Origin: Candidatus Daviesbacteria bacterium
GTDB taxonomy: Bacteria > Patescibacteriota > Microgenomatia > Daviesbacterales > UBA10151
DNA: 32,071 nucleotides
Direction: 5' to 3'
Assembly: GCA_016176415.1 (NCBI GenBank)
Contig: JACOXH010000002.1
Span: forward strand, 1 to 32,071
Shown here one piece after another: positions 2,767 through 17,320 of the stretch. Made by a program: the position numbers and the translations under genes. The number at the start of each line of letters is the position of its first letter. Position 1 is the stretch's first letter. The notes under the pieces were generated by a model. The model ran no database searches and was not told the DNA's origin. It saw nothing but the letters and a program-made list of their open reading frames with translations.

Positions 2767-2803
2767 TAAATAATTTATCTTAAGCCTTTGTCAAGGATTA
2801 AAA

Positions 2804-3325
2804 TCATTGCCTCTTTGCTTTTTTGGCACTGCCGGCATAATTTTGGGACCAGGGGTATTTGGCCATCAGGTTTTTGTCTTTATTTATAAACATCAATCCG
2901 ATAACATTGCCGATCAATACAGCAAAGATTACTGCTAAACTGGCAAAGCTGAAAGCCTGGACTCCGGTCATATTACTGACTCTAATCATGCCGGAAAAAA
3001 GCAAAACAGTGTTGATAAAATTCAAAACAACTGTTATGACATCCAAGGATCTTTTGGTCAGACTAAGCAGTATTATTTGGATCAAAGAAACAATAAAAAA
3101 TATCTCGAGAAATGAGGAAGGATAATTTAAGGCAAGTTCAAAACCGGTCCGGGTGCCTTTTAAAAAAGTTTCCCAGTTAAAAAAACCTAAAATTATTTGT
3201 AAAGATAAAAGTGATAAAAAAATTAGTCTTAATCTACTTTTAACTTTTTTATTCTGTGAAGAGGCAAGAGTAATAATCAAAGGGGAGAGGATTAAAATTC
3301 CGGCTAAAATAATCAGGTATGCCAT
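2804..3325 (-). CDS. Multi-pass membrane protein
   Basis: ORF with several hydrophobic segments. Confidence 0.55.
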   Translation of the reverse strand: MAYLIILAGILILSPLIITLASSQNKKVKSRLRLIFLSLLSLQIILGFFNWETFLKGTRTGFELALNYPSSFLEIFFIVSLIQIILLSLTKRSLDVITVVLNFINTVLLFSGMIRVSNMTGVQAFSFASLAVIFAVLIGNVIGLMFINKDKNLMAKYPWSQNYAGSAKKAKRQ

Positions 3326-3328
3326 GAG

Positions 3329-4540
3329 TTACAGGAATTTAAGCGAATCGATGATTTTTTTCATGAAAGGGTACCATTTATCCCAGGTTGATTCTAAAGA
3401 CACAATTGAGATTCTGATTTCATAGTTTTTCTCGTAAAGCACATAATTCTGGCTTTTGCTTTTAACGCCTGTTTTATAATCTTCCAGATTGTATTCAACA
3501 AAATAACCTTTTTTCCCATAATAATCGCCTTCTTTGGCGCCATCAGTTTTTAGTTTGCTTTGTTCCCAATACCAGTTATTATCTGCCTTGTAAATCATGG
3601 TGATGGAGATATTTGGTTTGCTTTTTCTAACAGTTCCATTTTTACCGGTTTGGGTTTCTTCTTCTCCGTCGTACTCAACTGAGTAATTTTTACCATCAGA
3701 AAATGAGGGTACTGATTTTGTCCAGTTTTCCGGTTCTTTCATGGAAAAAGATACCGGCGGCTTGAGTTTGTAAGGATTCCGATATGATGTTTCTTCAGCA
3801 GAGCCAAAAATTACATTAGAACCGGATGTTTTGACGGTATCCGTTGTTGACCCGGTTTGTTGCTGGGTGGCTGAAGTTTCTTGTTTAAATCTAAAGCTAT
3901 CCATTGATCCGAGGATAGCATCTTTTCTTTTATCCCAGGCTGAATCAAAAGTTCCCCCTTTGATATTAAATTCAAAACCGTTCTGGACGAATAAATAAGA
4001 TGCTGAATGCATTTTAATTCCCTCTTTTGTGTATCTTACTTCTGTAAAATATGCTTCATGTCCGTTTATAGTCAGCTTTTTGTCCGATAAATATTCTAAG
4101 CTTTCCAGACTTTGTGAAACTGATTTTGTGCCTTTTATAAAATCATCCAGGGCACTATTGTTTTTCGTAATATAAATAGCTATTTCAGGACTCAGGCTGG
4201 CTGTTCTGTTTCCAACCTTTTCTTTGTCTTTATCAGGCGCGGTAAGAGTTATTTTATTTTCTTTTTCCTGCTTTATCCAACCAACAGGTGGTTTAATGTA
4301 AAATACGGGAGCATCATAAGCAGAGGAGTCTTGGTTTTGTTGGGGTTTAGTGTTGGATTCACTGTTAGGGGAATTAGAGGGGGATTGTTTCTGGTTGGAA
4401 ATTTTAGACAAGTTAAGAGAAACTTTACCTTTGTTAACTTTAATGATTTCATTCTTTACGGCATATGCACCCCCTGCCAAAGTGGCAACGCCAATTGCTA
4501 TTAAAACAAATAAAGGGACAATCCCTTTTTGGTTAATCAT
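3329..4540 (-). CDS. Membrane-anchored protein with two tandem copies of a PPxGW/PxxW domain
   Basis: ORF; N-terminus MINQKGIVPLFVLIAIGVATLAGGAYAV; internal repeats FYIKPPVGWIKQE...WDKRKDAILGSMDSFRF and FSMKEPENWTKS...WDKWYPFMKKIIDSLKF. Confidence 0.65.
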   Translation of the reverse strand: MINQKGIVPLFVLIAIGVATLAGGAYAVKNEIIKVNKGKVSLNLSKISNQKQSPSNSPNSESNTKPQQNQDSSAYDAPVFYIKPPVGWIKQEKENKITLTAPDKDKEKVGNRTASLSPEIAIYITKNNSALDDFIKGTKSVSQSLESLEYLSDKKLTINGHEAYFTEVRYTKEGIKMHSASYLFVQNGFEFNIKGGTFDSAWDKRKDAILGSMDSFRFKQETSATQQQTGSTTDTVKTSGSNVIFGSAEETSYRNPYKLKPPVSFSMKEPENWTKSVPSFSDGKNYSVEYDGEEETQTGKNGTVRKSKPNISITMIYKADNNWYWEQSKLKTDGAKEGDYYGKKGYFVEYNLEDYKTGVKSKSQNYVLYEKNYEIRISIVSLESTWDKWYPFMKKIIDSLKFL

Positions 4541-4550
4541 TTCCTATCTG

Positions 4551-4817
4551 TTATTTCTTTTTACCCATTATGGCATCAGCTATTAGCCCGCCAACTGTTT
4601 TACCCCAGATTTTTTTAGCACCGATAAAGTAAATCAAGACAACTACAGCCCAGATAATAAGGCCTGTTGTATCCAGTTTAATTCCTACTGATGCAGATGT
4701 GCCGGTGGCTGATACGCCTTCACCGGTCCCCATCAATTTAGTGACTAATATTGAAGTTCCAATAATTCCGATGACAAAATTTAATACCCAAACTATTAAA
4801 GTTTTCAAATAGATCAC
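4551..4817 (-). CDS. Small membrane protein
   Basis: ORF of 88 aa with two hydrophobic segments. Confidence 0.5.
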   Translation of the reverse strand: MIYLKTLIVWVLNFVIGIIGTSILVTKLMGTGEGVSATGTSASVGIKLDTTGLIIWAVVVLIYFIGAKKIWGKTVGGLIADAIMGKKK

Positions 4818-4882
4818 CCCCTTTACTTTACAGTAAATAAAATTACTTGACTTGTCAAACGGAGAGCAGTACAGTTAATTTA

Positions 4883-5668
4883 ATGCCCAATTTTTTAAAC
4901 CAAAGGGGGATAGCCCCAATTGTCATAATACTTATTTTGGCTGTAACTGCGTTTACAGGCTTTAGTGTTTATAAATCAAGTAAAAAAATATCCATAAGGG
5001 AAGATAAAACAACAGAAACTACAGGTGGCAATTTGTATCCTAAGACCCCAAGTCCTAATACGGTTGATCTGGCCAACAGCGGAAGGTTAGTTTCTAAAGC
5101 TATTGAGGTGAGAGTTGATGAAAAATCCCCGGAGGCTCCCAGGTTTTCCATAAAACCTTTGGCAGGATGGGAAAAAATGCCTTCTTCAGGGCAAATCGTA
5201 GTTGAATTTCTGTCTCCTGTAAAAGATAAGATTGAAGAAAATTATACCTATTTTGATGTGCAGCCTAATATAACTGTTTTTGTTTCTTATGGTGATTTTG
5301 AGAGTTTGGATGAGGCGCATGCTGCTTTTTCATCTAAAAACAACACAAATATCAGCAGTCAAAAAACTACCATAAACGGAGAGGAGGCAATAGTCGCACA
5401 TTCTACAAAAGACTTGGCCGATTTATTAAGAGAAACTTTGGAATCTCAAATTAAAGAAGAAATTACCAAATCCGGTGCAGTTGTTTCCGAAACAGAGCTT
5501 AAAAGGGATTTAGAAAAACTGCTCAAACAAGCTAAGGCAAGGGTGCTAAGCTATTCATTTTACAAAGATGGTTATTATATACATGTTGCAGGTAAGGCTC
5601 TGGAAAGTTTTTGGGACAAACGCGAACCTCAAATAAAAAGCTCGTTAGATACATTTAAGTTTGAATAG
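4883..5668 (+). CDS. Membrane-anchored protein, same family as 3329..4540
   Basis: ORF track starts at 4847 (TTG); ATG at 4883 gives MPNFLNQRGIAPIVIILILAVTAFTGF, and a -10-like TACAGT lies just upstream. C-terminal FWDKREPQIKSSLDTFKFE matches the 3329..4540 family. Confidence 0.6.
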   Translation: MPNFLNQRGIAPIVIILILAVTAFTGFSVYKSSKKISIREDKTTETTGGNLYPKTPSPNTVDLANSGRLVSKAIEVRVDEKSPEAPRFSIKPLAGWEKMPSSGQIVVEFLSPVKDKIEENYTYFDVQPNITVFVSYGDFESLDEAHAAFSSKNNTNISSQKTTINGEEAIVAHSTKDLADLLRETLESQIKEEITKSGAVVSETELKRDLEKLLKQAKARVLSYSFYKDGYYIHVAGKALESFWDKREPQIKSSLDTFKFE

Positions 5669-5688
5669 ATAACCTCTGACATTTTAGT

Positions 5689-5694
5689 TATAAT
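5689..5694 (+). promoter_or_regulatory. -10 element (TATAAT) of the original ychF promoter, now detached from ychF
   Basis: TATAAT 8 nt upstream of the orphan ychF start ATGAGTTTAAAAGTTGG at 5703. Confidence 0.55.
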
Positions 5695-5702
5695 TTCCAG
5701 AT

Positions 5703-5719
5703 ATGAGTTTAAAAGTTGG
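5703..5719 (+). other. Left attachment scar 1 (attL1): orphaned native 5' end of ychF
   Basis: ATGAGTTTAAAAGTTGG encodes MSLKVG, matching the ychF start at 16214 (ATGAGCCTACGAGTAGG, MSLRVG); then diverges to stop after MSLKVGRLIIPSHI*. Confidence 0.8.
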
Positions 5720-5861
5720 AAGATTAATTATACCGTCCCATATTTAGACTTTAGCTTTGCTTTTACTACCCCAAAACCTAGATATGGGAGAAATATCATC
5801 CAAGAGAGATGAGTATGGTAAGATAGGTTTTCTAAATCGCCTGATTCTATGGTACAAATAA
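5714..5861 (+). pseudogene. Detached, frameshifted serine recombinase C-terminal tail (element 1)
   Basis: Phase set by the att core AGT: SWKINYTVPYLDFSFAFTTPKPRYGRNIIQER*, then DEYGKIGFLNRLILWYK* in another frame. Matches the element 2 tail DFPFQFNFKLPDSRKARIILERDSLGRI. Confidence 0.65.
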
Positions 5862-5864
5862 TTA

Positions 5865-6368
5865 ATGAAAACTTATGCTTTTATAGATAGCCAAAATTTA
5901 AATTTAGGGACAAGCAAAGATATTTTCCATGGGAGAAAACTAACTTACAAAGGTTGGAAACTGGATTTTAAAAAATTCAGGATATATTTAACTGATAAAT
6001 TTCGTGTGGATAAAGCGTTTCTGTGCATAGGATATATCAAACAAAATGAAAGTTTATATAAAAAACTCAGAGCAGACGGGTATAAACTGATTTTTAAACC
6101 AACAGTAAAAGATCATCAAGGTAAATCAAAAGGAAATGTTGATGCGGAATTGGTATTGCATGCAGCTGCAGTGGAGTTTTCTAGATACGATAAAGCAGTT
6201 ATTGTATCTGGTGATGGCGATTTTTATTGTCTACATGAGTATTTGGAGAAAAATAATAAACTGCTTAGAATCATTATTCCTAATTCAAAGTCTGAATCAT
6301 CACTCTTGAAAAAATTCCATAAATATAAAACATTTATTGAATTTGAAAAGAAGAAATTAGAAAGATGA
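5865..6368 (+). CDS. NYN-domain (LabA/DUF88-like, PIN-fold) putative RNase
   Basis: ORF; AFIDSQNLN, KGNVDAELVLHAA and VIVSGDGDF are characteristic NYN acidic motifs. Confidence 0.85.
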   Translation: MKTYAFIDSQNLNLGTSKDIFHGRKLTYKGWKLDFKKFRIYLTDKFRVDKAFLCIGYIKQNESLYKKLRADGYKLIFKPTVKDHQGKSKGNVDAELVLHAAAVEFSRYDKAVIVSGDGDFYCLHEYLEKNNKLLRIIIPNSKSESSLLKKFHKYKTFIEFEKKKLER

Positions 6369-6470
6369 GTATCAAAATGGGAGGCGTTGCATATAACACG
6401 CAGTCATATGTTCGTTTCTCCCTAGTGATAGATGTATGCCAGAAATATCAAGTAAAAAAGAGGTAAGAAT

Positions 6471-6487
6471 ATGAGTTTAAAAGTAGG
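6471..6487 (+). other. Left attachment scar 2 (attL2): second orphaned ychF 5' end
   Basis: ATGAGTTTAAAAGTAGG; identical to attL1 except one base, and shares the AGTAGG core with attR (16225..16230). Confidence 0.8.
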
Positions 6488-6643
6488 GAACTTCATCACA
6501 CAACTCCAACTTATAATTCAATAGACTTCCCATTCCAATTTAACTTCAAGTTACCTGATTCTAGGAAAGCCAGAATAATCTTAGAAAGAGATTCTTTAGG
6601 CAGGATTATTCACTCAAAAGCACCTGAAATGCTTACATTGTAA
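6482..6643 (+). pseudogene. Detached C-terminal tail of the element's own serine recombinase
   Basis: In phase with the recombinase through the AGTAGG core: SR-ELHHTTPTYNSIDFPFQFNFKLPDSRKARIILERDSLGRIIHSKAPEMLTL*. No own start codon in the integrated state. Confidence 0.8.
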
Positions 6644-6671
6644 AGGAAAAAGACTTAATGATTATTAATGA

Positions 6672-7139
6672 TTGTTAAGGATTTCGGTAAAAATGTTTAA
6701 ATACTCTTTTAATAAAAGACCAATAATAGAAAACTCACAAATAAATAATGTGAGTGTGTTTGTTAGGCATAATTATTTACTTATAAGAGACAAGTTAAAA
6801 GAAAAGGGGAGAGATCTTAATTTGAATAAGGAGGAAGACGTTCAAATGTTTATTGATTTGGTTAAGCAGAGTATAACAGTCAATCTTAGACAAGAGAATA
6901 ACGGGGATGTGTCTTGTACAGAGCATATGAATCCGATGAATCTTACTTATACTAGATCTAATTTAGGAAAAGGTTTTATATTTTGGTTTATCTGTAATCT
7001 TTGTGGAAGAAGGGTAAGATACTTATACTTTCCGCCAAACTCGGAGGTTATGGCTTGCAGGAGATGCCATAGATTAGCGTATAAGAATCAAAATGAAAGT
7101 AATTCTACATTTAGAAGAATGATGAGGGGTTATATTTAA
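6672..7139 (+). CDS. Zinc-ribbon protein of mobile elements
   Basis: ORF (TTG start; ATG at 6693 also possible); ICNLCGRRVRYLYFPPNSEVMACRRCHRLAYKNQ has two CxxC pairs. Confidence 0.65.
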   Translation: MLRISVKMFKYSFNKRPIIENSQINNVSVFVRHNYLLIRDKLKEKGRDLNLNKEEDVQMFIDLVKQSITVNLRQENNGDVSCTEHMNPMNLTYTRSNLGKGFIFWFICNLCGRRVRYLYFPPNSEVMACRRCHRLAYKNQNESNSTFRRMMRGYI

Positions 7140-7140
7140 T

Positions 7141-7713
7141 ATGGCAAAAACTAAAGCAGTAGTACCAGTAAAAACTCTTGATCAGATTAAAGATAGGATC
7201 AGTGGGTTTAGGACTGGATATGATTCAAGGCACGTTTTAGAGAAAGCGGATAAAGAACTAGGTGATAACAATGGTGAGCAGCTTGCAGATTCAGACACTT
7301 TTATTTTTAAAGCTATGACTGTGTATGAGTTTAATAATGGGATGCTTCTAGCTACTGCTATATCCGAGCAATATAAGACTTTAGCTATAGAAATGAGCCG
7401 TAACCTACAGAAGGAATTTGACTGCCAAAGTACTGCTGCAAAGGCTTTAGCCGAGATCGTAACCATGAATTATGTTAGGACTTTAGATATTCAAAGAAGG
7501 ATAAATAATTACTTAGAAAAAGGTACGATAAATGAGGTTGGAGTAAGGTTTTTAGATGTAATGAGTAGGGAATTAGACAGGGCAAATAGGCATTATATCC
7601 AGGCAGTAGAAACTCTTAAAGTATTTAAACAACCTGCAATGCAGCTCAAAATTAGTGCAAATACTGCTGTTGTAGGTCAAAATCAAGTTATCCAGGCAGC
7701 AAATAAACAGTAA
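7141..7713 (+). CDS. Hypothetical element protein
   Basis: ORF directly downstream of 7139, same strand. Confidence 0.6.
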   Translation: MAKTKAVVPVKTLDQIKDRISGFRTGYDSRHVLEKADKELGDNNGEQLADSDTFIFKAMTVYEFNNGMLLATAISEQYKTLAIEMSRNLQKEFDCQSTAAKALAEIVTMNYVRTLDIQRRINNYLEKGTINEVGVRFLDVMSRELDRANRHYIQAVETLKVFKQPAMQLKISANTAVVGQNQVIQAANKQ

Positions 7714-7780
7714 CCGCGTTAATATAGAAGAAATGATTTATACCATGTCCACATAAGTTTACATTGTTTATAGATTAAAA

Positions 7781-8224
7781 CTAATCAATTGTATAATCGT
7801 TGTCAGATGCCCAATTACTTATTGCATCATCAACTATGGAGGAATCCATATCTAAAGTGAAACTCCAGCTATTACCTTCGCTGTCTGTATCATAAGCATC
7901 TCCATCGCTATCAAATTCTGTATAGAAGTTTAAATATCCACCATTGGGGAAATATAAAGTTTCCAAGTGACCATTTGATATATCAGCATCTAAGCTGTAA
8001 CAGTTTCCGCTATCATCGGAACATGCTTCTATAGTTTCTGTTCCGTCCACATAGTCACTAATACTATCCCAATGACTGTCAATAGCGTCTGTTCTACTGA
8101 TCGCATTTTGATCATCGGAAAAATAATTACTGTCATTAAAACTAGAAGACTCATTAGATGAACCTGAATTAAAAATAAAAATAAAGAATGCTATTATCAG
8201 GCCCCAACCAAAAAAAGCTTTCAT
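7781..8224 (-). CDS. Acidic, membrane-anchored hypothetical protein
   Basis: ORF; N-terminal MKAFFGWGLIIAFFIFIF, then Asp/Ser-rich sequence including DSDGDAYDTDSEG. Confidence 0.55.
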   Translation of the reverse strand: MKAFFGWGLIIAFFIFIFNSGSSNESSSFNDSNYFSDDQNAISRTDAIDSHWDSISDYVDGTETIEACSDDSGNCYSLDADISNGHLETLYFPNGGYLNFYTEFDSDGDAYDTDSEGNSWSFTLDMDSSIVDDAISNWASDNDYTID

Positions 8225-8289
8225 TAATATTAATAATACTACTTATGGGATAAAAATAGTGTATATCTATGCTATAATTTTTTTATAAC

Positions 8290-8511
8290 ATGAATAAGAA
8301 AAAAATAGCTCCTTTTTTATTAGCTTCAGTTGCCATTATCATTTTGTTTTATTGGTTTCAAATCAGGCCAAGTGAGATTATAAAGTATTGTGATAACTTA
8401 GCTTGGAAAGAGGCAGAACCTTGGAAGAGGGGGGAAATTTATAAACAGTCGAGAACGCACTATTATAACTGGAAGTATGCTCAATGCTTGCATAGTTTAG
8501 GGTCAAAATAA
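8290..8511 (+). CDS. Small membrane-anchored hypothetical protein
   Basis: ORF of 73 aa; TATAAT immediately upstream of the start; hydrophobic N-terminus. Confidence 0.5.
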   Translation: MNKKKIAPFLLASVAIIILFYWFQIRPSEIIKYCDNLAWKEAEPWKRGEIYKQSRTHYYNWKYAQCLHSLGSK

Positions 8512-8553
8512 ATTCGATTGAAAAATAAACACATTAGGGGTATTATTCAAATA

Positions 8554-8793
8554 ATGAGAAAGAAATTATTCTCTTTTGTTATTGGTATTGCTCTCACATG
8601 TGTTTTTGTTGTGTCTTTTACATCTACCGCTGACGCTTATTCGTATAGAGTTAGAGGTTATACAAGATCAAATGGTGCTTATGTTCGACCTTATTACAGA
8701 ACTAATCCGAATTACACAAGATTTGATAACTATTCAACAAGAGGCAATTATAACCCCTATACGGGTAGGTTTGGTACAAGAAGCCCTTGGTAA
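8554..8793 (+). CDS. Small secreted protein, YxRSNGxYVxPYYRTNP family
   Basis: In-frame ATG at 8554 (ORF track 8518) gives signal peptide MRKKLFSFVIGIALTCVFVVSFTSTADA and motif VRGYTRSNGAYVRPYYRTNPNYTRFDNYSTRGNYNPYTG. Confidence 0.65.
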   Translation: MRKKLFSFVIGIALTCVFVVSFTSTADAYSYRVRGYTRSNGAYVRPYYRTNPNYTRFDNYSTRGNYNPYTGRFGTRSPW

Positions 8794-8963
8794 ATCCTAA
8801 GTTACTTTTTATTATTGCTTTTCTTCATTTATAACTAGACGCACTATGTAAAATGTTTACTAAAACCCAGACACTTATTAGAACAATAACTATCCATTTA
8901 AAAGTTATTACAAACCTTATTTTTAAGAATTCTATACCTTAATTTCATCCTAGCTAACCCTTT

Positions 8964-10556
8964 TTATTTACATAAGTTATTAATCTGAGAAGATAGATTT
9001 TTTTGTTCCCAATAAACATAGTCGCAAGATTTAGAAGCAGATGGGCATCCAGAAATACATTTGCTGTAGTTATCCCAAGCTTCCTTTGTACAAGCTGAAG
9101 AATTATCTCCTGAGTATCCGTAAGCTGCATAGCAAATATCTAAATCATTTTTATTGGTATTAGAACAAGAAACATAACAACTATCTGTTTTATAAAGATT
9201 ATCAGTACATTTATTATAATCAGATGACCATTGGTTCTTTTTGCTTTCCATAGTAGAAGCTATACTTTGAACAGCACCAACATTTTGTGAGGGACAATAA
9301 ACGGTATAGCCATTATAAGAAATAAACACTGGTACTTTATTGGAAGATGGTTGGGAAATATTTTGAGTAGTGTTTTGCACTGGTGCTTGTTGAGATTGAA
9401 AGTTCTTTTGAGCGTCGTCACATTTTTCGTTTGAAGGATAAATGGACCAAGTAGTTCCTACTTGGCAACAAGTAGTTTTCGAACATTGACTACTACGCAC
9501 TCTAATTGAAGTACCTTTACAATTAGGATAGGAAGATTCGCAATCAATAAAAGGATCTGGATCAGTATAGACAGTTTTTTGTGATGGTTTAATTGTGGCT
9601 GTTGGAGTTATGGGAGACCCAAAATGTATGACTACTATTTTTGTTTTTTTATCGGAAAGAAAGCCCTCTTTAACAGTTACGCCAATATCTTTAAAGTTCT
9701 TACCAAGGATGTTATCTTTATTGGTTTTATCAGTCATTAATGAAGATACGACTGAAGATGTATCATAGTAATTTCTAGCTAGGCTTTCACCACTATACTC
9801 TGAATTATAACCAGCTTCCTTTATGAAATAGCTAAAATCTTTCCCGTTTTTCGGTTTTATTTCCCATGAATTGGTATTTAATACGTCTTGCGCTCGTGTT
9901 TCTGATGACTTATCTAATAACTGATTTTCAAACAGTGGGGTAAGATCCTCTTTCTTCCTTTCTGTATTTATTTTTGCGATTATTTCAGTCTTCCAGATAT
10001 TTTCTACTGAAGCTCCACTTCTTTTCTGTAGGTCAGATTCTTGATACCCGTTCACAATATTTGTAATTAATCCATGCCCGTTAATCGTCATTATTGTTAA
10101 ATAAAATAGAAAGTATAAAAATGAAATCAGAGGGATGTAAGGAATAAATTTAAATTGGCTGAAATTTTTCAGTTTGTTTGGTAAGAATATAAAAACGAAG
10201 GTAACTATTCCGATAGCAATATTTGATAAGAAAAGTAAGCCCAAATAGTAAGAAAATTCTTTCTGGTTATTGGAAGTATTAATAGTGGCAACAAAAGAAG
10301 CAATGGTTGCAAGCCATAAGATTATTAAGGATCCTCTAATATTTATTCTATGATTTTTATTTTGAGATTTGGAAATTATATGATCAATAAGAGCTATAAA
10401 ATCATCTCTATGCACCTTTAAATCTTTCCCGATTTTTAAAGAGCCTGCCCTAATATATTGCCCTATATTTTCGCCTTCTTCTTCAAGTAAACTAGAGATC
10501 TCTTCTAATGAAAAGAATTCTTGAGAGCTTAGCTTGTCTTTATTTATCTTTTTCAT
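8964..10556 (-). CDS. Xis-like HTH - transmembrane - CAP/SCP domain - Cys-rich fusion protein
   Basis: N-term FFSLEEISSLLEEEGENIGQYIRAGSLKIGKDLKVHRDDFIALID (excisionase-type HTH); TM segments; IIAKINTERKKEDLTPLFENQLLDKSSETRAQDVL...NILGKNFKDIGVTV (CAP-like); Cys-rich C-terminus. Confidence 0.65.
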   Translation of the reverse strand: MKKINKDKLSSQEFFSLEEISSLLEEEGENIGQYIRAGSLKIGKDLKVHRDDFIALIDHIISKSQNKNHRINIRGSLIILWLATIASFVATINTSNNQKEFSYYLGLLFLSNIAIGIVTFVFIFLPNKLKNFSQFKFIPYIPLISFLYFLFYLTIMTINGHGLITNIVNGYQESDLQKRSGASVENIWKTEIIAKINTERKKEDLTPLFENQLLDKSSETRAQDVLNTNSWEIKPKNGKDFSYFIKEAGYNSEYSGESLARNYYDTSSVVSSLMTDKTNKDNILGKNFKDIGVTVKEGFLSDKKTKIVVIHFGSPITPTATIKPSQKTVYTDPDPFIDCESSYPNCKGTSIRVRSSQCSKTTCCQVGTTWSIYPSNEKCDDAQKNFQSQQAPVQNTTQNISQPSSNKVPVFISYNGYTVYCPSQNVGAVQSIASTMESKKNQWSSDYNKCTDNLYKTDSCYVSCSNTNKNDLDICYAAYGYSGDNSSACTKEAWDNYSKCISGCPSASKSCDYVYWEQKNLSSQINNLCK

Positions 10557-10692
10557 CTTAATGTTAATATTTTTTCCCTATAGGTATATCCTAATACTTA
10601 AGATTTGATAAGTAAAATTTATAATTTACCCCACCATCTTACTCTCTATAGTTTACAAAGATAAAATCAGGTAAAATTAGCTCAAAATTAAG

Positions 10693-12366
10693 ATGACTAT
10701 GACACCTGAAGAAAAAGTTAAAGCAGAGATATGGGAAGTTCTACAGGATTTGAAGGAGAAGAGTCTACTTCCAGATGACGATGGAGCGTTTTTCTATGAT
10801 ACTACCCACACAGTTATTGCAGCAGGTGAAATTAATCTTACTTTAGAAGAGAAATGGGCAGTCGTAAAAAAGCTTGCAAGAGATGGAGTTATTGAAATAG
10901 TAAGAGCCATCGAGCCAGATTGGAGAGGTGGAAGAAATGGATTTTACTTAAAGGTTATACAACCTACTTTTGAGGAGATATATGAGAAGTACAGAATAAT
11001 TAATGACTCTCAAGAAGGTACACAAGCAGTTCCATCTCATGCATATTCTTTAACCAATTCCGAACTTGTTGGTAGTCTAGAATTTAAGTTTAATAGTTTT
11101 AAAGATCTTCCAGAAAAAGGATTCTTCTTGGGCATTGCTGATTATATTAAGTTTATAGATGAAAATCCTGGTTTTGAGGAAATAATTTCAGCAATCGATG
11201 CTTTTAAAGAAAAAGATGCAGCCATACTTGTGGAACTAGGAAAGAAACTTTTGCTGGATGTTGAAAGAGTAGAAAAGGTTATTAAAGATAGATTGCAAGG
11301 GGTAGAGATTAGTTCAAAAATCGTAGAAAAAAGCCTTGAAGAATTAGAAATGAGGAAAGATGGTAGGATCCAGTCAAGTGTTTCAAAGACAGAGGAGCTT
11401 TACAGTGGACTAGGTTATGTTATTACAACACTTTATGAGAATGGGTATGAAAATCTTGTTTCTGATCTTATAAAATTTATTCCAAATACTAAATCAATCG
11501 CAGATTATAAAATCTCGGAATACTATTATCCTTATAAAGAAGAACTTACCGATTATAAGACCAAAATACAGAAAACTATTTGGGGTTCTTGGAACGAACT
11601 CATTGTTGTTTATCTCGTTGTTCACAAGTACAAAGAGAAAAAGAAAGAACTAATTGCTGCTAAAGATGCCTTAGGTGAAATGAACCTTTATGGATTACAT
11701 GAGGAGATGGAAAGTATATTAGGAAATTCTTATGATAAGGAGGGAAGAATGCAATTCATCAAGGATGATTATATTATTCACATTAATAGAGTGCATGACT
11801 TTGTTATTAACAAGCTTAATAGCGACCCAAATAGGAATACTGGGGATGAGGGAGGTAGAACCTTACAGGAAAGGTATACAAATCTTTTAGAAGAGGTAAG
11901 AACTAATACAATTGATTTGCAGGATCGGTACAATAAGCTTTTAGCAGAAATAAAATCCCAAAGATCAGAAAAAAGTAAAGCGATCCCGCAAGAGCCTCAT
12001 AATGAAGTACAAAGCAATTCAGCTGATTTGAACCTATTAGGTTGGAGTTTGATCAAGGATGTAAAAAAGCCTCAATTAAGGAAGAATGATAAAGTTGTAT
12101 ACGAGTTTGCAACGAATTGGTCTGATAAATACCGCTTCTTTGAATGTTTATGGGAGAATCAAGGACACGAAAAGAGTTCACAGGAGTTGTTTGAGTATAA
12201 AAGCAGCGAAAAGTATCCTGAAAAAGGAAAAAGATGGAAAATTAATAAATATATAGGTGAGGAGTTAACAAAGCTTCTCAAAGAGCCTGAATTCAAAAAT
12301 CATCCAATTAGAATTGATCGAAACAATGGTTATACCTTATTTATAGATGAAGTTGCCCCCAATTAA
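10693..12366 (+). CDS. Hypothetical large cargo protein
   Basis: Long ORF of 557 aa; coiled-coil-like centre. C-terminal ~80 aa (YRFFECLWENQGHEKSSQELFEYKSS...) may be a winged-helix fold. Confidence 0.6.
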   Translation: MTMTPEEKVKAEIWEVLQDLKEKSLLPDDDGAFFYDTTHTVIAAGEINLTLEEKWAVVKKLARDGVIEIVRAIEPDWRGGRNGFYLKVIQPTFEEIYEKYRIINDSQEGTQAVPSHAYSLTNSELVGSLEFKFNSFKDLPEKGFFLGIADYIKFIDENPGFEEIISAIDAFKEKDAAILVELGKKLLLDVERVEKVIKDRLQGVEISSKIVEKSLEELEMRKDGRIQSSVSKTEELYSGLGYVITTLYENGYENLVSDLIKFIPNTKSIADYKISEYYYPYKEELTDYKTKIQKTIWGSWNELIVVYLVVHKYKEKKKELIAAKDALGEMNLYGLHEEMESILGNSYDKEGRMQFIKDDYIIHINRVHDFVINKLNSDPNRNTGDEGGRTLQERYTNLLEEVRTNTIDLQDRYNKLLAEIKSQRSEKSKAIPQEPHNEVQSNSADLNLLGWSLIKDVKKPQLRKNDKVVYEFATNWSDKYRFFECLWENQGHEKSSQELFEYKSSEKYPEKGKRWKINKYIGEELTKLLKEPEFKNHPIRIDRNNGYTLFIDEVAPN

Positions 12367-12446
12367 GGTACAAAAAAGTATATTTCCGCTAATTGCTTAC
12401 CTGTAAATACCCTAAGTTACAATTCGTCTAGGCTATAAAAAGCTTG

Positions 12447-12719
12447 ATGAATATGACACAGCAAAGATTAAAAATTGATGATTATTACTCAACTTCGGAT
12501 TTGGCTTTGGCCAGTGCCATTGCACTTTATTATCCGCTTGAAGCGGTAGATAGAACCCAAGATCCATATAAGGCTCAGTTTCTTTTTAAGAAAGAGAGTC
12601 AGCTCGATCAGTTAATTGAATCATATTGGCGTGGAGAACTAAGGATAGAACCTCAAGCCTACTTTAATCAGCTTAAAGCGATTAAGGCAAGGTTATATGC
12701 GGATAGGAGGCAACCATGA
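12447..12719 (+). CDS. DUF5659-like small protein
   Basis: ORF; YYSTSDLALASAIALYYPLEAVDRTQDPYKAQFLFKKESQLDQLIESYWRGELRIEPQAYFNQLKAIKARL. Confidence 0.6.
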   Translation: MNMTQQRLKIDDYYSTSDLALASAIALYYPLEAVDRTQDPYKAQFLFKKESQLDQLIESYWRGELRIEPQAYFNQLKAIKARLYADRRQP

Positions 12720-14248
12720 CTGACGAAGAATATAGGGAATTTGAGGAAAAGTTTAATCAGGAGCAGGAAGAAAAAGCTCAAAAAAGGTTGGCAGAGCTAG
12801 ATAAGGAGTTCCCCTTAGAGGAAAGAATTTTAAGGCTAGAGCAAGCCAAAGCAGAGGAGAAGTTAGAGAAGCAAAAGGTTGAGCTGGAAGAGTTTGAAGG
12901 AGATGAACCAGTTATAGATACTTCTCAATTTCAGCCTTTAACAGTTGATGAGTTAACCAAAACTTTAGGCTTAACTATTAAAAGGGATCAGACCAATAAA
13001 CTTCTTACCTTTTTGGCTCAGCTTTCTGCCTACACAGAGGATTCCCAGCTAAATATTAGTTTTAATGCTCCTTCCAGCAGCGGAAAATCTTTTATCCCGA
13101 CTGAGATAGCTAGGTTATTCCCAGAGAAAGACGTTATTGAAGTAGCCTATTGCAGCCCTACGGCCTTTTTTCATGACTATGGTGAGTTTAACAAGGAAAA
13201 AGGTGGCTATACTGTTGATCTATCCCGTAGGATTCTTATTTTCTTAGATCAGCCTCATACTTTGCTGCTTCAGCACCTTAGACCCATGCTTTCCCATGAT
13301 AAAAAGGAAATTAGATTAAAGATTACGGATAAATCCCAAAAGGCAGGGTTGCGGACTAAAAATATCTATTTGGTTGGTTTTCCTACAGTTATATTCTGTA
13401 CAGCGGGTTTAAATTTGGATGAGCAGGAGGCTACAAGGTTCTTATTGCTATCTCCTGAAATAAACCAGGAGAAAATCAGGGAGGCTATTTACGAGAAGAT
13501 CAAAAAAGAATCCAATTCTTCTCTTTATAGCTACGAGCTGGAATCTAATCCAGAGAGGAAATTGTTAAGAGATCGGGTGCTTGCTATAAAGCAGGAAAGA
13601 ATTAGATTAATTAAGATTGCTAATCCAGGTTTAGTTCAGCAGATGTTTTTAGAAAGAGTTAAAGTTTTTAAGCCCAGACACCAAAGAGATATAGGCAGGG
13701 TGTTAAGTTTAGTTAAGGTTTTTGCCCTTTTAAATCTTTGGTTTAGGGAACGAAATAATTTTATAATCACGGCCAACGATGATGATATTAGGCAAGCTTT
13801 TAAAGTTTGGGATTCCATTTCTGAAAGCCAGGAGTTAAACCTTCCACCTTTTGTTTTCAATCTATTTAAAGACGTAATACAGGCTGCTTATAAGGATAAA
13901 AATGGCGAGTCAGATGGTATGGTGCAGATTGGGTTAACTAGGCAGGACATAATGCAAAAGCATTATGAGGTTTACGGCAGGTTTTTACCTCCTTGGCAAC
14001 TAAAAGAACAAATTATTCCATTATTGGAGGCTGCAGGCTTAATTAGTCAGGAACAAGATACAAGTGATAAAAGGAAAACACTAATTTACCCTACTGCATT
14101 ACTCTCTGTTCCTCAAACTCCAAACAATGGAGAGTTGCATGGTGGGGTAGAAGATAAAACCATTGATCAGTTAACGGCTGATGAGCAGCTTGAAGTAGGA
14201 AAGAGTGTCTTTGGTGAAGGAGTTAAGTGGGCAGAGGAGACAGCATGA
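12716..14248 (+). CDS. P-loop ATPase of mobile element (helicase/primase-associated type)
   Basis: ORF; Walker A FNAPSSSGKS, Walker B-like RRILIFLDQPH; overlaps the stop of the previous ORF. Confidence 0.65.
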   Translation: MTDEEYREFEEKFNQEQEEKAQKRLAELDKEFPLEERILRLEQAKAEEKLEKQKVELEEFEGDEPVIDTSQFQPLTVDELTKTLGLTIKRDQTNKLLTFLAQLSAYTEDSQLNISFNAPSSSGKSFIPTEIARLFPEKDVIEVAYCSPTAFFHDYGEFNKEKGGYTVDLSRRILIFLDQPHTLLLQHLRPMLSHDKKEIRLKITDKSQKAGLRTKNIYLVGFPTVIFCTAGLNLDEQEATRFLLLSPEINQEKIREAIYEKIKKESNSSLYSYELESNPERKLLRDRVLAIKQERIRLIKIANPGLVQQMFLERVKVFKPRHQRDIGRVLSLVKVFALLNLWFRERNNFIITANDDDIRQAFKVWDSISESQELNLPPFVFNLFKDVIQAAYKDKNGESDGMVQIGLTRQDIMQKHYEVYGRFLPPWQLKEQIIPLLEAAGLISQEQDTSDKRKTLIYPTALLSVPQTPNNGELHGGVEDKTIDQLTADEQLEVGKSVFGEGVKWAEETA

Positions 14249-14652
14249 AAAAGATAGCTGTTTTGAAAATAGACCATACCTATGCCAATACTGTTGACAG
14301 CGAGACAAGAGCGAATAGGTTTTATGATTGGTTAATTAACAAAGCCATAAATAATTTGCTTGAAAAGCAAAAGGGTATTGACAACAATAGTACACAAAAG
14401 TACACTGTAAATGATGAAAAAAATAGACGAGGAAAAGAAATCTATCGGCCAAGTATTTACAGAAGGGCTAAACAGAAGCTTGCTTCTAGAAGAGGAATAC
14501 TTAACCCCAGAAGAAGTAGCCAAAATTCTCAAAGTCGAGAAGATTACTATTTATCGAATGTGCCGAGCAGGCAAGCTCCCAGCAGTGAAATTTGGCAAGG
14601 TTTGGAGAATAAGCAGCAAGAAATTAAGGGAAGTTTTGGAGGAGAAGTTTAA
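14245..14652 (+). CDS. Hypothetical small protein, 3' half overprinted by the HTH gene
   Basis: ATG at 14245 gives MKKIAVLKIDHTYANTVDSETRANRFYDWLINKAINNLLEKQ. Only the portion before 14411 looks independently coding. Confidence 0.35.
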   Translation: MKKIAVLKIDHTYANTVDSETRANRFYDWLINKAINNLLEKQKGIDNNSTQKYTVNDEKNRRGKEIYRPSIYRRAKQKLASRRGILNPRRSSQNSQSREDYYLSNVPSRQAPSSEIWQGLENKQQEIKGSFGGEV

Positions 14653-14656
14653 ATGA
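14411..14656 (+). CDS. Excisionase-type HTH DNA-binding protein
   Basis: ORF; YLTPEEVAKILKVEKITIYRMCRAGKLPAVKFGKVWRISSKKLREVLEE; ATGA overlap with the recombinase start. Confidence 0.8.
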   Translation: MMKKIDEEKKSIGQVFTEGLNRSLLLEEEYLTPEEVAKILKVEKITIYRMCRAGKLPAVKFGKVWRISSKKLREVLEEKFK

Positions 14657-16329
14657 TTGCTGCCCTTTATGCCAGAGTTTCTACAGCCAGACAAGAAGAG
14701 CAAGAAACCATAGATTCACAAATTGAAGAGATCAAAAAGAGGATTCAGGAAGATGGAAATATCTTGCCGTCCGAGAATATATTTTCAGATGACGGCTGGA
14801 CTGGTGAAATGCTGCAACGGCCAGGACTTGATGCTATGAGAGACGCAGCTATGGCAGGAGCTTTTCAGATGTTGTATGTCTATGACAGAGGAAGGCTCTC
14901 CAGGGTATTTGCTTACCAGGAAATCATTATTGAGGAGTTGGTTAATTTTGATATTCAGTTTGTTACCATACATGACATTAAGGCTGAAACCCCAGAAGAG
15001 AGGGTGTTGCAGGCTATGCAAGGGGTCTTCCATGAGTATGAAAGGGTCAAGATTGTGGAAAGGATGCGAAGAGGAAAGCTATTTAAGGCTAGAAATGGAA
15101 TACTGATTAATGGAAGTTCAATTTATGGATATGACTATATTAAAAAAACAGAAACAGAACCAGCACACTATAAAATTAATGAAGAGCAGGCTAATGTAGT
15201 TCGCCAGATCTTTGATTGGGTAGGAAATGAAAGAATTTCACTTAACGAGGTTATAAGAAAGCTCTATGATATGGGTATTCCACCTAGGAAAAAGAAAAGC
15301 GAGTTTTGGACAAAAGGTCCCATTGTCAGGCTTTTGCAATGCAGCAGTTATATTGATGGCTATGTTTACTTTAATAAGTCTGAATCATGTGTAGCCAAGA
15401 AACCCATTAAGCACATTAAATATAAGAAAGTTAAAAGGTCTAGTAGAAAACCAAGACCAAGAGAGGATTGGATACCATTTAAGATCGCTCCAATTTTGAA
15501 TGACAGGCCACTTTTTGATAGGGTACAAAAGATCCTCAATTTTAATCAAACCTATGCTCCAAAGAATAGGAAGCATGATTATTTACTTCCAGGACTCCTG
15601 TTTTGCGAATGTGGTAATAGGCGAGCTGGAGATGGACAAAATAAGAGTGGACACTTCTATTACAGGTGTACAGAGAGGATTTATAACTTTCCTTCATTAG
15701 AAAGAAAGTGTAAGTTGCCAGGTGTAAATGCAGTCATATTAGATGGCATGGTATGGAGAGAGCTAATGAAGTTTGTAAAAGACCCAAAAAGGCTTAAAGA
15801 GCAGGTAGAAAGAGTTTTGAGGGAAAGAAAAGATCAGTCAGTAAGTAAACAGGAATGTGATCGTTTGGGGGTTCTTATAAGCAAGATCGAAGAGGAAGAG
15901 CAAAGATATGCTAAAGCTTATGGGGCAGGATCTTTAGAGTTTGGGCAATTTAAAGATCTTATGCGAGATGCAAAGAAAAGGAAGCAGGATCTACAAACAA
16001 AGCTTAATAATCTCCAGGCAAATATAAATGAAGTAGGCTTAGACAAAATACAGGTAGATGATATATGCTATGAGGCACAGAAAGTCCTTGATGAGATAGA
16101 TTACTCTGATAAGTTCAAATCTGTTAGGACTTTACTGGATAAAGTAACTATAAAGGAAGGAGGATGGGTTAACATATGCGGACATATACCATTATTTGCC
16201 CAAATGTTGGGAGATGAGCCTACGAGTAGGAATTGTAGGTCTCCCAAATGTAGGGAAAAGCACATTATTCAATGCTCTTTTGAAAAAGAGGGTTGCTTTA
16301 TCTGCAAATTACCCTTTTGCCACGGTTGA
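14653..16329 (+). CDS. Large serine recombinase (integrated-state form, last 32 codons supplied by ychF out of frame)
   Basis: ORF; resolvase-type N-terminus ALYARVSTARQEEQETIDSQ, DRGRLSR, recombinase domain, zinc ribbon (CECGNRRAG...YYRC), coiled coil. Codons 527-558 lie in ychF sequence (NCRSPKCREKHIIQCSFEKEGCFICKLPFCHG*). Confidence 0.9.
   Translation: MIAALYARVSTARQEEQETIDSQIEEIKKRIQEDGNILPSENIFSDDGWTGEMLQRPGLDAMRDAAMAGAFQMLYVYDRGRLSRVFAYQEIIIEELVNFDIQFVTIHDIKAETPEERVLQAMQGVFHEYERVKIVERMRRGKLFKARNGILINGSSIYGYDYIKKTETEPAHYKINEEQANVVRQIFDWVGNERISLNEVIRKLYDMGIPPRKKKSEFWTKGPIVRLLQCSSYIDGYVYFNKSESCVAKKPIKHIKYKKVKRSSRKPRPREDWIPFKIAPILNDRPLFDRVQKILNFNQTYAPKNRKHDYLLPGLLFCECGNRRAGDGQNKSGHFYYRCTERIYNFPSLERKCKLPGVNAVILDGMVWRELMKFVKDPKRLKEQVERVLRERKDQSVSKQECDRLGVLISKIEEEEQRYAKAYGAGSLEFGQFKDLMRDAKKRKQDLQTKLNNLQANINEVGLDKIQVDDICYEAQKVLDEIDYSDKFKSVRTLLDKVTIKEGGWVNICGHIPLFAQMLGDEPTSRNCRSPKCREKHIIQCSFEKEGCFICKLPFCHG
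16214..16230 (+). other. Right attachment junction (attR): element-supplied ychF 5' codons
   Basis: ATGAGCCTACGAGTAGG encodes MSLRVG but differs from the orphan starts at 5703/6471 mainly at synonymous or conservative positions; core AGTAGG 16225..16230. Confidence 0.8.
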
Positions 16330-17320
16330 ACCAAATGTGGGAGTAGTGGCGGTGCCTGATTCTCGTCTCTCGTTGCTCGCAGAGCTCGTTGCTCGTGAAG
16401 AGAAGATGGATCAATTGCCTCCAATTGTACCGGCAGTGGTGGAGTTTGTGGATATTGCAGGATTGGTAAAAGGTGCGTCAACTGGAGCAGGATTGGGTAA
16501 CCAGTTTTTATCACACGTTAGGGAAGTTGATGCCATAGTTCATGTTTTAAGGGATTTTAATGATCCAAATATTATCAGGGAAGGATCAGAAAATCCTGAT
16601 GCTGATAAATTAACTATTGAGACAGAGTTAGGGTTGGCAGATTTACAGACTATTGAAAAATTAATTCCTGCCCAAGAGGCTCAAGTCAGAGCCAGTAAAG
16701 ATGTTTTAGAGAGCGAGAAGTTAGAGATTCTGAAACAAGTGCAGAATGATTTAAATGAAGGAAGGGTTTTGGGAAAATATAGTATTGGTGACGAGAGGGT
16801 AAAGGATTGGTTCGAACATTTGCCACTGCTTTCTATAAAGCCTGTGCTGTATGTTTACAATGTGAGTGAAGAAGAGTACTCAAACAAGTTGAGAGATTCT
16901 TCGGCTTCGCCTCAGAATGACAAGGTTGTAGTAATTAGTGCAAAAGTAGAAGAGGAATTGGCTGATCTAAATGATGAGGAAAGAAAAGAATATTTAAAAG
17001 AATTAGGGATAGAAGAAACAGGTTTGGAGAGATTAATTAAGAAAACCTACTCTCTTTTGGGACTGATGTCCTTTTTAACTGCAGGTAAAAAAGAAGTTAA
17101 AGCATGGACTATTAAAAAGGGAACAAAAGCCCCACAAGCAGCAGGGGTAATTCATACTGATTTTGAGAAAAAATTCATCAGGGCAGAAGCAGTATCTTTT
17201 GATAAATTAATTGAGGCAGGATCAATGTCAGGAGCAAAACAAAAAGGCTGGGTCAGAACAGAAGGGAAGGATTATATTATGCAGGAAGGTGATGTAGTTG
17301 AATTTTTAATAGGGAGTTAA
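16214..17320 (+). CDS. ychF: Redox-regulated ATPase/GTPase YchF (OBG family)
   Basis: [69 protein letters not shown] and a C-terminal TGS-like region. Start at ATG 16214 by homology with the orphan starts. Confidence 0.95.
   Translation: [368 protein letters not shown]
16894..16924 (+). repeat. Half-unit of the TTGTCATTCTGA repeat inside ychF
   Basis: AGATTCTTCGGCTTCGCCTCAGAATGACAAG, related to the units at 25463..25549 and 26831..26899. Confidence 0.75.

Follow-up and report, generated by a model that had tools for sequence, protein, structure and literature searches.

What are 51 open codons doing at 6488-6640, just inside the left end of an integrated element, when nothing in the chromosome could start their translation? 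The question arises in a window of 32,071 nucleotides (the whole stretch of DNA analysed here, positions 1 to 32,071 of contig JACOXH010000002.1) from a Candidatus Daviesbacteria genome of 675,768 bases in 17 contigs. The codons and their stop occupy 6488-6643 (+), within an open frame that extends from 6467 to 6640 and stops at 6641-6643. Start-type codons in this frame are limited to an ATG at 6629 and a TTG at 6638, both at its far end, so that the tail, as these codons are called here, is not translatable alone, and no ORF of at least 60 aa begins at its position in a mechanical ORF listing. Directly before it stands ATGAGTTTAAAAGTAGG (ATG AGT TTA AAA GTA GG; 6471-6487, +), an orphan ychF start that joins in frame to ychF and forms the left half of attB. 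Its last six bases, AGTAGG (6482-6487, +), are the left att core, in which GG at 6486-6487 is the presumed crossover dinucleotide.

The same core recurs on the right at 16225-16230, where AGT AGG are codons of a recombinase ORF (14653-16329). Between the two lies an element of 9,743 bp, or 9.74 kb core to core (6488-16230, +), inserted at codon 6 of ychF with AGTAGG on both flanks. Joining the ends of the element at the core produces a single 577-codon open frame (GDEPTSR/ELHHTTPTYNS...LTL and a stop) in which recombinase and tail are exactly in phase, and joining the outer flanks restores an intact ychF (MSLKVGIVGLPNVGKST...) whose sole stop is terminal. The preliminary description had portrayed a start-less recombinase tail stranded about 8 kb upstream of its gene and in phase with it across the element, and each part of that picture is borne out, the distance from the tail end to the recombinase start being 8,010 bp. 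The junction of a circular form would be expected to read ...CCTACGAGTAGG/GAACTTCATCACAC..., and the empty site ATGAGTTTAAAAGTAGG/AATTGTAGG. A repeat finder run on the window did not single out AGTAGG, which is too short to stand out. An alternative core in the P-loop of ychF (AAATGTAGGG) was rejected because the start of the GTPase domain would be deleted.

The recombinase body (14653-16230, +; 526 aa) ends at the core and carries the Resolvase (PF00239, E 4.6e-25), Recombinase (PF07508, E 3.2e-12), and zinc-ribbon (PF13408, E 9.4e-6) domains of large serine recombinases (LSRs), all above gathering scores. Its alignment to the SPbeta integrase reaches to about 30 (31) residues from the end of the SPbeta chain, which places the core near the point where the usual LSR fold ends. 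The tail gave no match in Pfam or the PDB and appears to be an extension without known relatives beyond that fold. In the integrated state the recombinase instead acquires a replacement C-terminus from ychF read in another frame (NCRSPKCREKHIIQ... to a stop; 16231-16329, +), giving 558 aa compared with 577 aa in the joined, tailed form. An AlphaFold model of the integrated recombinase, built from three sequences, had a mean pLDDT of 51 and a pTM of 0.35 and was discarded. The cargo (7141-14652) comprises mostly genes without assignment, together with a CAP/YkwD-domain protein (8964-10556, -), a DUF5659 protein (12444-12719), and a protein with a Walker-A-like SSSGKS motif (12716-14248), for which neither a search with this ATPase-like protein nor a defence library gave an assignment. 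Phage structural, packaging, and lysis genes are absent from the element, the matches being confined to the integrase, the CAP-like protein, and one unassigned PHROG.

The target gene, ychF (16214-17320, +; TIGR00092, E 2e-121), has its present start, ATGAGCCTACGAGTAGG, at 16214 within the recombinase gene, where the element supplies ATG AGC CTA CGA GTA GG in the +1 frame (16214-16230, +). This arrangement recurs at 20 of 20 junctions examined, each with an in-frame ychF start codon inside the recombinase end, preceding the core by four to eight codons (19 ATG and one GTG), and the same bases are read in two frames, for example as GYEPIGR in the recombinase and as MNLSVG in ychF. Because the right end of the element encodes the start and first residues, ychF retains a complete frame, and the element thereby gives ychF a new start while parting the gene from its own promoter.

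Relatives were sought with the joined protein in 281 genomes of the class at a cut-off of E<=1e-40, which 23 genomes satisfied, including that of the window. The 3′ end of the recombinase overlaps or abuts the ychF start in 22 of these 23, and the majority of matches end at query residues 514-528, that is, at the core. Orphan tails lie upstream in 13 genomes of this set besides G159 (below), and every tail with a clear boundary starts at an orphan ychF start. Seventeen tails could be aligned, with invariant F, P, R, I, R, G, and I positions, and a profile built from them and run against 380 genomes of the phylum found tails in 27, in frames open for 25 to 135 codons except for one match in a 363-codon frame (E 8.7e-3), which was too weak to rely on. 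Wherever tail and ychF fall in the same fetched stretch, the tail is upstream and in the same orientation. Five recombinase loci of the first set have short contigs upstream, and four others have no tail in the stretch read, so that the association of tail and recombinase is incomplete.

Two relatives of the joined protein were found among named genome contigs (Microgenomates and Candidatus Collierbacteria), and both end at the core. Viral contigs held no close match to the joined recombinase; an alignment query retrieved 117 distant LSRs from them at <=30% identity, with a tail in none of the 80 retained. Phages and plasmids gave distant LSRs only, the best about 31-32% identical, and no circular form of the element was seen. 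Other families of the phylum have recombinases at ychF with upstream frames at orphan ychF starts that represent a second tail type, whose first half is common to both types (PFE.K..MP) and whose remainder differs (GNRGYSDKYI). Single matches to this type, which was noted at seven loci in seven genomes, are weak (E 0.003 to 1), and the position and mutual similarity of these diverged tails suggest the same layout in those families. At one locus (L043, in contig C22 of genome G170) the recombinase runs into a short ychF fragment, and a second, intact ychF start follows about 100 bp on.

The exception among the 23 genomes is G159, of the same genus as the window, in which the match covers residues 155-574 of the joined query and extends on through the tail as a 449-codon frame. 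The fusion arises because a second element sits between the recombinase body and ychF in a tandem array. The body lacks the catalytic N-terminus, so the fusion is evidence for the junction and not for a working enzyme. The intervening 5.4-kb cassette (contig C23) adjoins ychF, carries glycosyltransferase-like genes, and preserves just the remnant of one recombinase end; the tail fused to the upstream body belongs to this cassette. The check proposed in the preliminary description, homology of the tail to recombinase C-termini, thus has a direct answer in G159, and most other genomes with a ychF recombinase show what split integration predicts, a tail left upstream at an orphan ychF start. The outcome that would have counted against the proposal, conservation as an independent ORF, did not appear: no tail with its own start was found, and the tails bear a signature of protein-level selection.

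That signature comes from pairwise comparisons, in which all pairs with enough changes have a higher dS than dN, and dN/dS is mostly 0.1-0.5 (for example dS 0.54 and dN 0.09 for the tail of G084, and 0.83 and 0.13 for that of G054). These values are rough because the sequences are short and several pairs are saturated, yet their direction is uniform and points to purifying selection on the encoded protein. Such conservation means that the tail matters to the element in at least one of its states. Further support comes from the att site itself. The recombinase end and its cognate tail, the first ~30 bp of which form the right arm of attP, together make a dyad that is symmetric only when centred on the core GG. 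Its mean match across 13 elements is 0.492, compared with 0.388 after permutation of the tails between elements (p=5e-5), with the arms matched 16-27 bp out from the centre and the crossover position itself deduced. No clear centre of dyad symmetry emerged at empty attB sites.

A 17.8-kb element on contig C4 of genome G412 lies in a gene other than ychF, with a tail at its left end and a recombinase at its right, and its flanks join into an uninterrupted 379-codon frame on the other strand. By reading alone, without a database match, we take this frame to encode a glycosyltransferase of the heptosyltransferase type. The insertion is apparently ectopic, and the same arrangement in an unrelated gene indicates that the tail belongs to the element and not to ychF.

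Tails also accumulate in front of ychF, and the window contains such a case. Directly left of the element is a recombinase-less cassette (5720-6487) whose left end is a relic tail of 30 codons followed by a stop, the conserved second half no longer being in frame (5720-5809, +; E 1.9e-8). The relic follows an older orphan ychF start, ATGAGTTTAAAAGTTGG (5703-5719, +), with a core AGTTGG at 5714-5719 and a TATAAT-like box just upstream. This older, frame-broken tail and the 51-codon tail flank the cassette's only gene, which encodes an NYN-domain protein (5865-6368, +; PF01936) whose homologues lie shortly before ychF in several of the family's genomes. More than one tail precedes ychF in nine genomes, and one array, on contig C12 of G463 (2776-11483), has six tandem tails within about 6 kb upstream of ychF, separated by one or two genes, in a genome where no recombinase was detected at the threshold used. 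Most cassettes of this array end in a similar promoter-like stretch and a ychF start, and the encoded ychF N-termini differ (MSLKVG, MPLKVG, and MSSLKVG); the locus looks like a gene-cassette array. Given the low dN/dS of its tails, each probably descended from a working recombinase gene. Several loci retain a tail where the recombinase has been lost or broken. Recombinase-less ychF loci of the family include one with a tail 3.9 kb upstream of ychF (G043) and those of six genomes with an NYN gene close before ychF. In four of these genomes (G100, G120, G287, and G291) ychF has no obvious ATG.

These observations very probably have one explanation, namely that the element's own LSR gene lost its 3′ end on integration and that this end now stands at 6488-6640 as 51 displaced codons. 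In this scheme attP would lie inside the recombinase gene, immediately past the region for the conserved LSR domains on its 3′ side, and the circular form would encode a 577-aa enzyme whose last 50 or so residues are a conserved extension. Recombination at the GG in codon 6 of ychF would leave the recombinase body at the right end, where it would run into ychF in another frame and gain an unrelated C-terminus, and would strand the tail, now start-less, at the left end; ychF would receive its start and first residues from the right end, in the other frame, and so keep a complete frame. The full-length enzyme would be made from the circle, and the exchange of tails would change the enzyme or shut it off. 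If the exchange does alter the enzyme, the integrated state would hold until the tail is restored, for example by tandem insertion, or until an enzyme is supplied in trans. The sequence shows the split gene and its joins in phase, homologous tails under selection, the attP symmetry, and the ectopic arrangement. The preliminary observation is therefore real and its reading as a displaced recombinase tail is supported; the identity of ychF as the target, its re-created start, the relic at 5714-5809, and recurrence across the phylum go beyond it.

What the exchange does to the enzyme is more debatable. One reading, which we regard as a strong contender somewhat short of even, keeps the same anatomy and holds that the tail is essential, so that integration kills the enzyme and cannot be undone before a complete copy arrives, as for a 'suicidal' serine integrase. 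The tail is conserved, it persists at several loci whose recombinase is lost or broken, as expected of a gene that is useless once integrated, and the tandem locus of G159 shows a possible route by which a tail could be regained. However, the integrated form keeps its three recognised domains and aligns to the SPbeta integrase nearly to the end, and so it need not be dead. A second reading, that both forms are active and the exchange is a directionality switch, is rather unlikely. The tailed enzyme would favour integration and the integrated enzyme excision or inactivity, with the exchange perhaps replacing part of the role of a recombination directionality factor (RDF). Known LSRs steer direction through their C-terminal parts, the coiled coil in particular (PMC3783163), which makes a switch possible though not likely on present evidence. 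The tail is distinct from that coiled coil, and no known domain matched it.

Alternatives to the displaced-tail anatomy itself fare much worse. Were the tail a small gene or RNA in its own right at the left end, its phase with the recombinase being accidental, the conserved open stretch would be accounted for, but this is very improbable, given that the tail has no usable start codon, begins at the core and in phase with the recombinase in every clear case, contributes to an attP symmetry that depends on cognate pairing, and is naturally fused to a recombinase body in G159. A chance open frame in AT-rich DNA can be dismissed as negligible, for although the given frame is open over 51 codons in about 2% of composition-matched random sequences, which makes openness weak evidence by itself, other genomes carry tails of this family at the corresponding position.

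Displacement of the tail thus remains the preferred reading, and it suggests self-splitting integration by a bacterial LSR, here and in relatives across the phylum. A broader proposal is tentative: serine recombinases throughout the phylum may swap their own C-terminal extension by integrating, so that circular and integrated enzymes differ and the direction or stability of recombination is set by insertion itself, with the same DNA also encoding the start of the interrupted host gene. These loci offer a natural test of the role of the C-terminal extension in serine integrases, enzymes that are also tools for genome engineering. The tail would escape annotation, and every integrated copy would be given the wrong C-terminus, which matters for tool mining. 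Tails also serve as markers of past ychF insertions where recombinase genes have since been lost.

A search of open-licence papers found none that deals with these bacteria's serine recombinases or with ychF as an insertion target for them. In Streptococcus pneumoniae, a defective prophage has its int directly upstream of ychF and is thought to control ychF (PMC8637289). The likeness is one of position: that account places int beside ychF as a neighbour and, unlike the present case, does not speak of a gene split by integration (PMC8637289).

The best NCBIfam match of the recombinase is CcrB, at 82 bits, far below the cut-off of 900, so that the curated model does not class it as a Ccr recombinase. 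The resemblance to SCC elements lies in the use of a serine recombinase and in tandem elements that pile up at one conserved housekeeping gene. SCC elements target rlmH, unlike the present elements, which are inserted in ychF. To our knowledge, no Ccr gene is split at its own att site.

With LSRs such as SPbeta YokA, phiC31, the A118/LI integrase, and those of Wolbachia WO, the enzyme shares Resolvase, Recombinase, and zinc-ribbon domains and an attP dyad with a two-base centre, and its closest phage relatives are the Wolbachia WO recombinases, at about 31% identity. Unlike these phage and element LSRs, it has a C-terminal extension past the aligned LSR region and an attP inside the coding sequence. 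Deletion or mutation of the coiled coil in known LSRs permits attL x attR recombination (PMC3783163). Open-licence papers yielded no account of a natural LSR gene divided in this way, and an earlier one may exist in the subscription literature.

The closest parallel is with the archaeal type I (SSV-type) 'suicidal' integrases of SSV1/SSV2, pTN3, and pT26-2, whose att site lies inside the integrase gene (PMC8371274). On integration their gene is divided, with one piece left start-less at the element's other end, and excision is believed to depend on an intact copy acting in trans (PMC8371274). A 2021 review described self-disrupting recombinases as exclusively archaeal (PMC8371274). The present recombinase likewise has its att site within its own gene, which is split on integration. 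The archaeal enzymes are tyrosine recombinases whose catalytic part is severed from the N-terminal part, whereas the present enzyme is a bacterial LSR that carries serine recombinase domains only, retains its recognised domains, and exchanges only about the last 50 residues. It therefore appears to work like the suicidal integrases without being one of them, and a bacterial case in the serine class, with many independent examples, set beside the archaeal tyrosine class, suggests that the strategy arose more than once.
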